Shown: in pieces, positions 1 to 35,870 of the stretch | How positions within the stretch are numbered: the stretch's first letter is position 1 | Layout of the letters: each line of letters opens with the position of its first letter | IMG/VR virus record: IMGVR_UViG_3300032893_000189 | Coordinates: 1-35,870 of that record | From: a virus | Direction: 5' to 3' (one strand) | DNA: 35,870 bases | Translations under genes and position numbers: made by a program | Notes under the pieces: generated by a model | Database searches by the model: none | What the model was told of the DNA's origin: nothing | What the model saw: only the letters and a program-made list of their open reading frames with translations

Positions 1-145
1 CGGCCCCGAACCCGAACCCCGCCCCGAACCCGTCCCCGGCACCGAACCCGAACACGTCCCCGAACACGTCCCCGTCCCCGAACCCGTCCCCGTCCCCGTC
101 CCCGAACCCGTCCCCGTCCCCGGCCCCGTCCCCGGCCCCGGCCCA
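1..145. repeat. CCCGNN hexamer tract, left part
   Basis: Phased hexamers CCCGAA, CCCGTC and CCCGGC run without any indel up to the CCAGAA that ends the tract. A few units carry CAC or ACC in place of CCC. It continues from 35617 onward if the molecule is circular. The minus strand has runs of three or four G separated by two or three bases, a G-quadruplex-type pattern. No start codon opens a reading frame through it. Confidence 0.95.
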
Positions 146-165
146 GAAATTTTTCAGATCTTCCA
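1..165. repeat. Left copy of the terminal direct repeat
   Basis: Positions 1-165 match 35706-35870 at every base except 20 (C against A at 35725) and 39 (G against A at 35744). The last 126 bases (40-165) are identical. Most of it is hexamer tract, but it ends in unique sequence running into the end of the first gene. This is what a circular or terminally redundant molecule assembled as a linear contig looks like. The two mismatches fit strain variation or assembly uncertainty in the tract. Confidence 0.9.
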
Positions 166-456
166 TTCCGGGACCGCCTTGATATTCTTTACGGCTTCAG
201 GTTTGCATGGTATGATCTCGATCGCTTCGGTGAGAGTTATCGAATCCACTGGCTGTGCAAATTTGCATTCATCCGGATATTTCACACCCTCCATTGCGAG
301 TTGAGAAAGAGTAGTCGCACCTTTCCAGTACCAGATTCGGCGCGAGTTTTTGAGCACAACCTCTTTCCCTTTCTGCGAGACCAATTCTCCCGTATGCACA
401 CCGGCAGAATATGTTCTTACTACTACATATGGATTTTCCTTTTTCGATTTCTCCAT
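154..456 (-). CDS. DUF6948-like phage protein, 100 aa
   Basis: A small soluble protein of unknown function. It starts MEKSKKENPYVVVRTYSAGVH and contains GKEVVLKNSRRIWYWKGA near the middle, then PDECKF, TEAIEIIPC and a terminal VPEWKI. This layout matches, from memory, the DUF6948 proteins common in tailed phages. The start is preceded by AAAAGGAGG with good spacing. It is the last minus-strand gene before the hexamer tract. No signal peptide, membrane segment or catalytic motif is visible. The family match is good; the function is not known. Confidence 0.8.
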   Translation of the reverse strand: MEKSKKENPYVVVRTYSAGVHTGELVSQKGKEVVLKNSRRIWYWKGATTLSQLAMEGVKYPDECKFAQPVDSITLTEAIEIIPCKPEAVKNIKAVPEWKI

Positions 457-2215: not shown

Positions 2216-2455
2216 TTAATCTACGATTGACCAATCCTCTGCCATGAGATCGGTCTGAGACGCGAGCCACGGACATCGTGCCCCGGGAGTAGTTTTTGAA
2301 TCTGATGGATATTCGATATATAGATACGGTAAAGTTATTTTACTATTTTCATCCGGAAATTGAGCTTTAACCGTCAACCCTTTCCCATTCCATCCAGCGC
2401 GCTGAATGGATTTTCCTGTTTTTACTGCTTCAAGTGCCTGTGAAAATGTTAGCAT
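2216..2455 (-). CDS. DUF2829 / Tad2-like anti-Thoeris protein, 79 aa
   Basis: The sequence shows the family's whole signature: an N-terminal FSQALEAVKTGKSIQRAGWN followed by GKG, a central strand (ITLPYLYIEYP), and a C-terminal PWLASQTDLMAEDW. From the literature, DUF2829 proteins of the Tad2 group are phage sponges that sequester the cyclic ADP-ribose-type signal of Thoeris, preventing ThsA activation. Length (79 aa) is normal. It is the last gene of the late operon, just before the terminator. Family assignment is strong; activity against a particular Thoeris signal is inferred. Confidence 0.85.
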   Translation of the reverse strand: MLTFSQALEAVKTGKSIQRAGWNGKGLTVKAQFPDENSKITLPYLYIEYPSDSKTTPGARCPWLASQTDLMAEDWSIVD

Positions 2456-23366: not shown

Positions 23367-23552
23367 ATGAAGACAAGATCAGAGCTTATCGAAGAGATCG
23401 AAGCGTCAAAGTCAGAGTATGTCGTATACGGTGATATGATCACGCCGGTCAAGAAAGAAGATGCGATCGAAGATATCGAGTGTATGGACGAAGAGCTGAT
23501 AGGTGATGGCGACTGGACAGAGTGTGATGCACAAGGAAAATTTATCGAATAG
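23367..23552 (+). CDS. Acidic small protein, 61 aa
   Basis: It starts MKTRSELIEEIEASKSEYVV behind AAGGAAGGAG and ends GDGDWTECDAQGKFIE. It is strongly acidic, with about a third Asp plus Glu. Small acidic early phage proteins often mimic DNA or block host nucleic-acid enzymes; nothing here proves that. It is co-transcribed with its neighbours. Confidence 0.7.
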   Translation: MKTRSELIEEIEASKSEYVVYGDMITPVKKEDAIEDIECMDEELIGDGDWTECDAQGKFIE

Positions 23553-23615
23553 GTGACGGCGCTTCGGGGCGTAAACCACGAGCCTCGTCAGAAGTCGAGG
23601 CAAAAGGAGGGTATA

Positions 23616-25698: not shown

Positions 25699-26255
25699 AA
25701 TTCTTCGTCTTTACCAGTTTTATTCTTCGTCGACAGTTCGTGCCATTCTTGTTTATAATCCGCCTCAAATTGTTCGAGTTCGTATTGCAATCCGAATCTT
25801 TTTTTTCCGTGCTTGATCAGCATCCATCCACAGTGCGAGCAACGTAAATCCGTATTTGACCCGAAAACATAAAGTTGACCCGCAACAAATTCTTGATACA
25901 GCCATGGGAACCTATGATGCTTGCTACAATTCGGACATTTTGGATAACAGTCACAAGCAGGTTCAAAAAAATGGACGTAACCGAATTTATTTTCAAACTC
26001 AATCTCGCGCCAGCGATGTTTGCAAAGTGGGCAAATCCCTGTTTCAGTTTCGGCCGTATAAAGACGCATTATTTCATCCTGTTTATGTGGTTTGGCGGCT
26101 TTGAAAATATCACTCCATTGCTCGGTTCTTATTTTAATCTTTTCCGCCCATTCCGCTTTTTTCTCGTCGCTGGTTTTTTCCCGGAACGATCGAGTCAATA
26201 ATTTCCCGACAGGCGAAAAACTCGCTTCCGCTTTTTCGATTATTTCTGTACTCAT
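25695..26255 (-). CDS. Cys-rich protein beside the replication initiator, 186 aa
   Basis: The N-terminal helical part (MSTEIIEKAEASFSPVGKLL, EKKAEWAEKIKIRTEQWSDI) is followed by several Cys pairs: CPLCKHRW, CDCYPKCPNCSKHH and CSHCGW, enough for two or three zinc sites. It ends with an acidic tail (TKNKTGKDEEL). Coupled to the initiator gene, it may be a helicase-loading or DNA-binding accessory. This is inferred from position; no ATPase motif is present. Confidence 0.65.
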   Translation of the reverse strand: MSTEIIEKAEASFSPVGKLLTRSFREKTSDEKKAEWAEKIKIRTEQWSDIFKAAKPHKQDEIMRLYTAETETGICPLCKHRWREIEFENKFGYVHFFEPACDCYPKCPNCSKHHRFPWLYQEFVAGQLYVFGSNTDLRCSHCGWMLIKHGKKRFGLQYELEQFEADYKQEWHELSTKNKTGKDEEL

Positions 26256-27163
26256 GATGATCCTTTCTGCCGTTCATACTCTCCGATGATCAACGGCCAA
26301 GTTTTTTCTGCCATCAAATGGCGAGGTGCAAGTTGTAATTTCCCCGTCAAAAAATGCTTATCCTCCCCTACGCAAATCCTGCGGAATACGCCAAGAATCG
26401 CCGAAAGGAAATTGAGCTGTCCAGATTCCGTCGGAGATCGTGCTCGAGCTTCCTCGATGAGTAGTTTGATGTAGGGAGTTTCCCGTTTCCAATCGTTTTT
26501 CGATACGAAAATTCCGGGATTGTGTTTGTAAAACCAATCTTTTACTCGAGTATAAAGTGGATCCGGTTCTTTCTCGATTTTCTCATGTTTTTTTTCAACA
26601 CATTCCACGCCGGAGCTTTGCGGAGGCGTAGAAGGCTCGGATTCAGATTTTTCGACTTTCGGAAAAATATCAGGCTCCGTTTCGGATTCCGCCGGCTCTT
26701 TGCCGCCGCGCGTGATATAACTTAACTTAACTTGACTTAACTTAACTTCAGACGGATGGTTTCCGGCAATCTTCCGGAAATCTTCCGGCTTAATTTTGGG
26801 AAATAATTTCCCATTTTTGGGATCTGGGATATAAGATTTAGGTTCCCGCTCGTATCTCATTCCTATCTGTTCCCCTTTAAATCCGGGGAAAAAAATCCAT
26901 TTATCACCTTTAGCCTCATACCAAACGATTAGGCCGGAGTAGTACCATTCACGGATAAAATACTCCATATCATCAATCGTTATATCTTCCCGACGCGGGA
27001 AAATAATCGATTTTAAAACAGAGGGTTCTCCTTGAATTCGGCCATCACGATCGAGATGAGTAATTGCCCACGAAAATGCGAGTCTACTGGTATCACTCGA
27101 AAGATCATGAAGGCGTTTATCAACTGAAACTTTTTTTGATAAAAATCTACCTTGTGCCATCAT
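26252..27163 (-). CDS. Phage replication initiator (O/DnaD-like), 303 aa
   Basis: The N-terminal winged-helix domain (SSDTSRLAFSWAITHLDRDG, SIIFPRREDITIDDMEYFIR, EWYYSGLIVWYEAKGDKWIF, GMRYEREPKSYIPD) matches the widely found phage replisome-organiser domain. A variable linker (EVKLSQVKLSYITRGGKEP, then Glu/Pro-rich) contains the CTTAA repeat cluster. The C-terminal half (RVKDWFYKHNPGIFVSKNDW, LLIEEARARSPTESGQ) resembles DnaD-type helicase-contact regions. It likely binds the origin within its own gene and recruits host helicase. Confidence 0.8.
   Translation of the reverse strand: MMAQGRFLSKKVSVDKRLHDLSSDTSRLAFSWAITHLDRDGRIQGEPSVLKSIIFPRREDITIDDMEYFIREWYYSGLIVWYEAKGDKWIFFPGFKGEQIGMRYEREPKSYIPDPKNGKLFPKIKPEDFRKIAGNHPSEVKLSQVKLSYITRGGKEPAESETEPDIFPKVEKSESEPSTPPQSSGVECVEKKHEKIEKEPDPLYTRVKDWFYKHNPGIFVSKNDWKRETPYIKLLIEEARARSPTESGQLNFLSAILGVFRRICVGEDKHFLTGKLQLAPRHLMAEKTWPLIIGEYERQKGSS
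26721..26750. repeat. Iteron-like pentamers, possible origin
   Basis: Six tandem pentamers CTTAA, CTTAA, CTTGA, CTTAA, CTTAA, CTTCA form two 15-mers (CTTAACTTAACTTGA and CTTAACTTAACTTCA). They lie inside the initiator gene, where lambda-type phages keep origin iterons. Confidence 0.55.
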
Positions 27164-35242: not shown

Positions 35243-35342
35243 TGCGAGTGGCAGGATTCGAACCTGCATGATTAATGTGTGTTGTCGCATTAATCTCCGG
35301 AGAGAGCTCACGCCGAATGTCTGCCATTTCCACCACGCTCGC
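35243..35342 (-). tRNA. Class II tRNA-Leu-like gene with abnormal anticodon arm
   Basis: The 5' part GCGAGCGTGGTGGAAATGGC has a Leu-type acceptor and D-arm (T8, GG at 18-19). The T-arm is textbook: GCAGG, TTCGAAT, CCTGC. The acceptor 3' strand CACTCGC plus discriminator A pairs with one mismatch. The long variable arm has an 8-bp perfect stem GATTAATG/CATTAATC. The anticodon arm instead has TTCGG/CCGGA around 12 bases (CGTGAGCTCTCT). With one extra G-C pair after a C-T mismatch the loop is 8 bases. Total length 100, longer than usual; CCA is not encoded. It may be a tRNA variant, mimic or decayed gene. Confidence 0.65.
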
Positions 35343-35438: not shown

Positions 35439-35591
35439 TCATGATTTCAGTACGACCCCGATCTGGTTCGCAGTCTTCTCGATCGTCTTCACAGATCGAT
35501 CCATCTTTTTCGAAAGCTGCTCAGCCGTCATCGTCGATCCTTTTTCAAGGATCATTTTTCTTTCTTCTTTTGATAACTGACCTTTTTTCAT
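35439..35591 (-). CDS. Small HTH-type protein, 50 aa
   Basis: It starts [20 protein letters not shown] behind AAAAGGAGG; then [20 protein letters not shown], a helix-turn-helix with recognition helix, and ends [10 protein letters not shown]. It is the first gene after the hexamer tract, so it may act at that region or regulate the early genes. No family name is certain. Confidence 0.75.
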
Positions 35592-35616
35592 TCAGTCCTC
35601 CTTTTCTATTTTTTTA

Positions 35617-35850
35617 GCCCCCGGCACCGAACCCGTCCCCGGCACCGTCCCCGGCCCCGGCCCCGAACCCGTCCCCGGCCCCGTCCCCGAACCCGAACCC
35701 GAACCCGGCCCCGAACCCGAACCCAGCCCCGAACCCGTCCCCGACACCGAACCCGAACACGTCCCCGAACACGTCCCCGTCCCCGAACCCGTCCCCGTCC
35801 CCGTCCCCGAACCCGTCCCCGTCCCCGGCCCCGTCCCCGGCCCCGGCCCA
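35617..35850. repeat. CCCGNN hexamer tract, right part
   Basis: About 39 hexamers in one phase with no indel. The last two bases are almost always AA, TC or GC. The plus strand in one frame reads (Pro-Glu/Val/Gly)n, but there is no start codon and a TGA sits at 35578-35580. The minus strand is G-run-rich. It occupies the whole gap between the 50-aa gene and the first gene across the circle junction. Confidence 0.95.
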
Positions 35851-35870
35851 GAAATTTTTCAGATCTTCCA
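35706..35870. repeat. Right copy of the terminal direct repeat
   Basis: It matches 1-165 except at 35725 and 35744. The exact part is 126 bases (35745-35870). Joining the two copies gives a circle of about 35,705 bp and reunites the two parts of the hexamer tract. Confidence 0.9.

Follow-up and report, generated by a model that had tools for sequence, protein, structure and literature searches.

The DNA analyzed is a single virus record from IMG/VR, 35,870 bp long; this whole stretch of DNA is referred to below as the window. Near its right end lies a CCCGNN tract of 234 bp (35617-35850), consisting of 38 hexamer slots in a single phase. Exact CCCGNN fills 32 of the 38 slots, with the variable dinucleotide being TC in 11, AA in 11, GC in 9 and AC in 1; the six substituted slots read ACCGAA (twice), ACCGTC, CCCAGC and CACGTC (twice). 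The description of about 39 hexamers in perfect phase, given in a first-pass annotation made from the sequence, is correct if such substitutions are allowed. Other 234-bp stretches of the window contain at most 3 phased CCCG on the same strand. In 2000 shuffled versions of the tract itself the maximum was 8, compared with the 32 observed.

Positions 1-165 of the window repeat positions 35706-35870 with two mismatches, at positions 20 and 39. The genome is circular or terminally redundant, with a unit of 35,705 bp and contig ends at the repeat, so that a gene runs across the circle junction. It also follows from this overlap that the 35,705-bp circle contains a single tract, the copy at 1-145 being redundant: the tract had been described as spanning the junction, and the contig ends do overlap by 165 bp, but they hold one tract only. 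The features around the junction are:

35614-35870, minus strand: (Gly-X)n repeat gene, 85 aa, open frame with X = Asp, Phe or Ala; the product ends in ...DGFGAGG
35614-35616, minus strand: stop codon TAA of the (Gly-X)n gene
1-166, minus strand: redundant 5' copy of the (Gly-X)n gene, with the complete ATG (166-164)
173-180, minus strand: Shine-Dalgarno-like AAGGCGGT, 6 nt ahead of the ATG of the (Gly-X)n gene, as judged from the sequence
154-456, minus strand: DUF6948 protein, 100 aa, predicted Sm-like fold; PF22253, E 1.1e-33
35439-35591, minus strand: small protein of 50 aa, HTH-like, encoded by the following gene of the run; weak matches to HTH_11 and phrog_323
35597-35605, minus strand: AGGAGG of the HTH-like gene

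When the ends are joined, the minus strand encodes MEDLKNFW followed by (Gly-X)n (GX below), in which X is Asp, Phe or Ala. Gly is found at 36 of the 38 Gly positions (33 GGG and 3 GGT codons), and X is Asp in 14 cases, Phe in 13 and Ala in 9, encoded mostly by GAC, TTC and GCC. The restriction of the variable position to three dinucleotides is thus explained by the genetic code: they belong to Asp, Phe and Ala codons placed between GGG glycines. Where the two end copies differ, position 39 gives Ala or Val at an X position and position 20 is synonymous, with no Gly affected. The first-pass annotation found no start codon, and this holds for the plus strand, but on the minus strand the ATG at 166-164 opens the tract; it went unseen by the reader and by the ORF list because the right end (35870) cuts this ATG by one base and the left copy also runs off the contig. 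The idea of a coding repeat was likewise right about coding but wrong about strand and protein, the product being minus-strand Gly-Asp, Gly-Phe and Gly-Ala rather than plus-strand Pro-Glu, Pro-Val and Pro-Gly. The HTH-like gene reported beside the tract is indeed present (35591-35439). Two candidate readings were rejected: the plus-strand Pro-rich frame, which lacks a start and is not the frame retained in relatives, and the Pfam and NCBIfam matches of the repeat itself (TrAA12, ser_rich_anae_1), which are low-complexity noise under the cut-off.

The gene that precedes GX passes the curated Pfam cut-off for PF22253 (DUF6948) by a wide margin (115.7 bits vs 27). Its stop codon (TGA) and the GX start overlap in the pattern ATGGAAGATCTGA, with the GX ATG inside the last DUF6948 codons, as in the main class of homologues. 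We surveyed 274 DUF6948 loci from IMG/VR, GTDB genomes, phages and plasmids, which are the best matches to our queries and not a random sample; a scan of viral sequences with a single query sequence had returned no relatives, and alignments were needed as the query. After relatives were dropped at 90% identity, 190 genes remained, and a GX ORF was counted when it scored at least 8 pairs and started within -40 to +150 of the DUF6948 stop. By this definition, a GX ORF lies behind DUF6948 in 176 of the 190 genes, which come from phages and prophages of numerous bacterial phyla; the search for the tract in related genomes, which the earlier annotation had proposed, thus yielded homologous (Gly-X)n ORFs almost throughout the survey. 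The remaining loci comprise six with a shorter or degenerate GX, one (L103) with a very short GX, three at a contig end, one in-frame DUF6948-GX fusion (L266), and three (L231, L073, L087) with no GX ORF at -40 to +150 of the stop. In addition, the profile phrog_18306 matches both DUF6948 (154-240) and the GX tract (58-136); together with the L266 fusion, this suggests that the two proteins act jointly.

The arrangement of the two genes is also highly regular. An ATG overlaps the end of DUF6948 at 174 loci, the longest ORF from there being GX at 161 of them, and the offsets of the GX start from the DUF6948 stop are mainly -13 (96), -17 (45) and -16 (15). We considered TGA read-through from DUF6948 into the repeat, for which a frame (GPGTG...) is open in the window, and rejected it because the start-overlap frame is GX at 161 of the 174 loci. 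Within the first 107 loci (471 kb), 109 GX tracts lie no more than 500 bp downstream of DUF6948 and 14 lie elsewhere, several of these 14 being tandem copies of the GX gene. Tandem duplication was seen in L023, L028, L079, L046 and L097, as 2-3 copies with alike ends and differing middles, and at one such locus the copies flank DUF6948 on both sides. Published annotations of the gene are faulty in two phages: in Iodobacter phage phiPLPE (L005) it is unannotated, in the gap between genes 84 and 83, and in Chlorobiaceae phage CV-1-33 (L004) the wrong frame is annotated as gene 25 (MAMAMALA...).

We also performed the reciprocal search: IMG/VR was scanned solely with a DNA pattern that specifies ten Gly-[Asp/Ala/Tyr/Ser] pairs, and 80 loci were returned. 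DUF6948 is directly upstream at 40 of the 80, and another 13 are truncated by the start of the contig. At least 10 of the other 27 have a diverged DUF6948 relative upstream, mostly as overlapping or close ORFs: the upstream gene is above the Pfam cut-off at L307 and L289 and weak at L349 (E 2.5e-4), and a group characterized by 'VVVVDRGWIFAGDV' and 'VVLDRGFVYVGDV' gives a profile-profile alignment to DUF6948 with E 1.6e-4 and a probability of 50%. The 'VVVVDRGWIFAGDV' family, which has no Pfam model, precedes GX genes at L294, L308, L312, L325, L346, L290 and L292, and it is probably a distant Sm-like relative. The rest of the 27 are seemingly unrelated low-complexity stretches or unclassifiable. 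Comparison of these loci gives good support to the conclusion that the tract is a coding gene and that it is paired with DUF6948.

What is conserved among these tracts is the encoded protein. Across the GX ORFs linked to DUF6948, X is Ser, Tyr or Asp in 86% of cases; in about 5,200 X residues we counted Ser 38%, Tyr 26%, Asp 22%, Asn 4% and Phe 2%, with Ala also present, while Leu, Ile, Val, Arg, Thr, Pro and Lys each account for less than 1%. In the window, Asp is retained, with Ala used for Ser and Phe for Tyr. Prokaryotic low-complexity regions are generally depleted of aromatic residues (PMC6821194), which makes the Tyr/Phe content of the GX proteins unusual. The dominant Gly codon differs between loci (GGC at 136, GGT at 14, GGG, the type of the window, at 7, and GGA at 4), and it is usually near-uniform inside one tract. 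That one protein grammar is written in differing hexamers points to selection on the protein, not on the DNA, and the uniformity of the Gly codon within a tract points to recent amplification.

These data bear directly on the view that the tract is a non-coding DNA or RNA element (a G-quadruplex, a packaging site, a terminus) or open junk left by slippage. The minus strand of the window is indeed G-rich, and all three minus frames are open across the tract, as this view would have it. However, the DNA is not conserved, with four different dominant Gly codons among homologues, while the position of the start codon and the composition of X are. A G-quadruplex motif occurs in only 7 of 165 homologous GX ORFs, and Shine-Dalgarno-like sites of at least 5 nt are enriched before the GX start (47/165 vs 304/3300 control positions; odds ratio 3.9, P 8e-12). 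We consider a non-coding origin highly improbable. The G-quadruplex or packaging element was dropped as a candidate, since the motif is not conserved and the Gly codon varies by genome, and the broader proposal of a regulatory, packaging or replication-terminus element meets the same difficulty, because homologues with GGC, GGT, GGG or GGA codons specify the same (Gly-X)n protein. A relic of a Pro-rich gene, also proposed earlier, does not agree with homologous tracts that retain the (Gly-X)n protein while their DNA changes.

Close relatives show how quickly the repeat changes. In the seven phages of the Koroua/Setonix group, whose DUF6948 proteins are at least 95% identical, the GX proteins are 53, 67, 73, 83, 85 and 89 aa long; all of these lengths differ by even numbers, and the ends of the proteins are nearly identical. 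Prophages of N. gonorrhoeae contain 16 distinct GX proteins. Length differences are mostly even numbers of residues; premature ends and, in L044, a frame-shifted stretch are among the exceptions. Thus the earlier suggestion of a hypervariable tract is borne out: close relatives vary in length, mostly by whole dipeptides. Contig ends within 500 bp of DUF6948 are far more frequent downstream than upstream of it (35 vs 4), indicating that the GX tract is a general assembly breakpoint, as it is in the window. This explains a recurrent artefact, in which GX tracts end assemblies and low-complexity filters hide GX genes. It also bears on the possibility, raised earlier, that the contig ends were joined into an assembly chimera. 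The two mismatches within the 165-bp end overlap could be taken as a sign of this, but such tracts generally end contigs, and joining the ends restores the DUF6948-to-(Gly-X)n order found at 176 of the 190 DUF6948 genes; a chimera is very unlikely, and we regard its probability as negligible.

What kind of protein is the partner of GX? The DUF6948 pattern G..FGEL..K.G.EV.L.NARR...LTEAIEIIP resembles the Sm motifs, a likeness that we noted ahead of the fold searches. An AlphaFold2 model from a 72-sequence alignment (pLDDT 94, pTM 0.84) is a five-stranded Sm-type barrel, with strands at residues 10-15, 20-29, 32-43, 70-75 and 78-83; unlike canonical Sm proteins, it has no helix before residue 10, and has one at 86-93 instead. 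Among the matches listed, nearly all PDB structures similar to the model are Sm/LSm or archaeal SmAP proteins. The Foldseek matches include 6ppn_H (probability 1.0, with a weak E-value of 4e-3), and VIA aligns DUF6948 with 1i8f_C at Z 7.1 (2.1 Å over 60 residues), a score below 8 and thus at a level that may mean just a common arrangement, so that the likeness is one of fold only. A sequence search of the PDB with DUF6948 gave only a chance hit and no significant match to a solved Sm protein, and the diverged relative at L349 has a subthreshold match to Hfq (E 0.023). As judged from the model, DUF6948 very probably has an Sm-like fold; the Z below 8, the lack of a sequence match and the missing N-terminal helix are the reasons why we go no further than the term Sm-like and do not assign it to the LSm/Hfq proteins. 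Taking the comparative evidence together, we estimate a probability of roughly 0.8 that the tract is a coding gene whose product acts together with this Sm-like partner.

How might such a pair work? We read the (Gly-X)n gene as the second partner in a conserved pair of phage genes, the first being DUF6948 with its predicted Sm fold. Its product would be a short low-complexity protein whose X positions take only small (Ser/Ala), aromatic (Tyr/Phe) or acidic (Asp) residues. We suggest that the DUF6948 protein forms a putative RNA-binding ring, and that coupled re-initiation makes the glycine-repeat protein, which would supply a disordered acidic and aromatic tail in trans to the Sm-like ring. 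The Asp residues of the tail may compete with RNA or sweep it, as the acidic tail of Hfq does, and/or its spaced Tyr/Phe may drive the assembly of RNA-protein bodies. Replication slippage of the 6-bp unit would alter the length of the tail without breaking the frame. We hold this scheme of a ring with a tail in trans at somewhat below even odds; it draws on analogy with known Sm proteins, and one point against it is that an Asp-rich GX chain, being acidic, is itself unlikely to bind RNA. The wider picture, a widespread phage ribonucleoprotein system of Sm-like ring and trans tail with slippage-set length, possibly forming condensates in infected cells, is more doubtful. Neighbors of the module with known domains are mostly genes of DNA recombination and replication (RecT, YqaJ, ERF, SSB, Gp157), which suggests early expression. 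In relatives from gut phages, a conserved domain of ~150 aa comes after the GX tract, whose purpose may therefore be different in these phages. Phages of gut Bacteroidota and Clostridia have this domain at about 40 loci besides L199 (3079-3540), L101 and L110; it carries the motif H-x3-LTGSCxxGR and gives a confident model (pLDDT 95), with no match in Pfam, NCBIfam or PHROGs and no informative fold match in the PDB.

It is instructive to compare the pair with known Sm proteins. Eukaryotic SmD1, SmD3 and SmB combine the Sm fold with RG dipeptide tails; they resemble the phage pair in joining an Sm fold to Gly-X dipeptide repeats, but their X is Arg (basic and methylated) instead of Asp, Tyr or Ser, and their tails are in cis. 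The protein 3by7, Sm/LSm-like and from an uncultured organism, shares the Sm-like barrel with DUF6948 and is one of its top structural hits (Z 6.6, again under 8; 2.8 Å over 69) but is only 11-15% identical to it, and we know of no repeat partner for it. Hfq of Acinetobacter baumannii has GGFGGQ repeats, and its glycine-repeat tail is needed for function, with length mattering (PMC11617691); like the phage pair, it has acidic residues and joins an Sm core to a long, disordered repeat region of glycine and aromatic residues, but it is a host gene with the tail in the same polypeptide, whereas the phage tail would be a separate overlapping gene with strict Gly-X alternation. The acidic C-terminal tail of E. 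coli Hfq is a nucleic-acid mimic that binds the basic rim, in competition with RNA (PMC5606850); this combination of acidic disordered sequence and Sm core is the source of our proposed mechanism, although the Hfq tail is in cis, a short acidic tip, and free of dipeptide repeats. Borg elements attach disordered tandem-repeat regions to Sm proteins (PMC9879509), and thus offer another Sm protein of a mobile element with fast-evolving in-frame repeats; theirs are N-terminal and in cis, with units of 4-17 aa, on archaeal elements. Low-complexity regions of the hnRNPA1 type (PMC4822317) are also Gly/Ser/Tyr-rich, belong to RNA-binding proteins and are linked to RNA granules, but they are eukaryotic, in cis, and irregular in place of the strict alternation.

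Other functions for the pair have to be weighed against the ring with a tail in trans. The module could be an accessory anti-defence or host-takeover device, in which the Sm/SH3-like barrel would sequester host RNA or a nucleotide while a host factor would be blocked or decoyed by the hypervariable repeat protein. Its place among early/accessory genes, adjoining the recombination and replication genes named above, is consistent with this, as is fast length change, which fits an arms race, and a Tad2-like gene lies in the window ~2 kb from the DUF6948-GX pair (2216-2455, minus strand; PF11195, E 2.6e-21; Thoeris anti-defence family). However, no defence system is linked to the module, and a single anti-defence gene would not usually be as conserved, or as widely spread across phyla, as DUF6948 is; the lack of a PADLOC match refers to a library of defence, not anti-defence, proteins. 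We consider this explanation unlikely. Somewhat less likely still, the repeat protein could form a silk-like or polyglycine-II-like polymer with a structural or adhesive role of its own (for example, in the virion or at the cell surface), its gene being merely co-transcribed with DUF6948. The alternation of Gly-Ala, Gly-Ser and Gly-Tyr does resemble silk and glycine-rich fibres. Against a polymer acting alone, the tight overlap of the genes, the L266 fusion and the phrog_18306 profile all tie GX to DUF6948, the neighbors with known domains are mostly DNA-metabolism genes, and no signal peptide is evident by eye at the GX N-termini.

A literature search, with subscription papers mostly outside its reach, found no paper on DUF6948 or on phage Gly-X proteins; the pairing appears to be undescribed, while Sm cores with repeat tails are already known. 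What looked like a junk repeat is, on this evidence, one of two partner genes that occur together in phages (phiPLPE included) and prophages across numerous bacterial phyla. If the pair is indeed a ring with a tail in trans, it would provide a simple natural system for the roles of tail length and of aromatic and acidic content in Sm proteins, and its natural length variants would be available for testing effects of tail length.

Three minor features of the window were also recorded. A tRNA-like gene at 35243-35342 (minus strand) scores 30.1 against an Rfam gathering score of 29 and was not called by ARAGORN; its middle is odd, with a long insert and no clear anticodon arm. Just past the terminase gene, 23552-23599 (plus strand) gives a subthreshold match to the Twister-P5 ribozyme (29.2 bits, gathering score 37.6, E 0.024). 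Finally, TAACT is repeated six times in tandem at 26718-26748, inside the reading frame 26252-27163.
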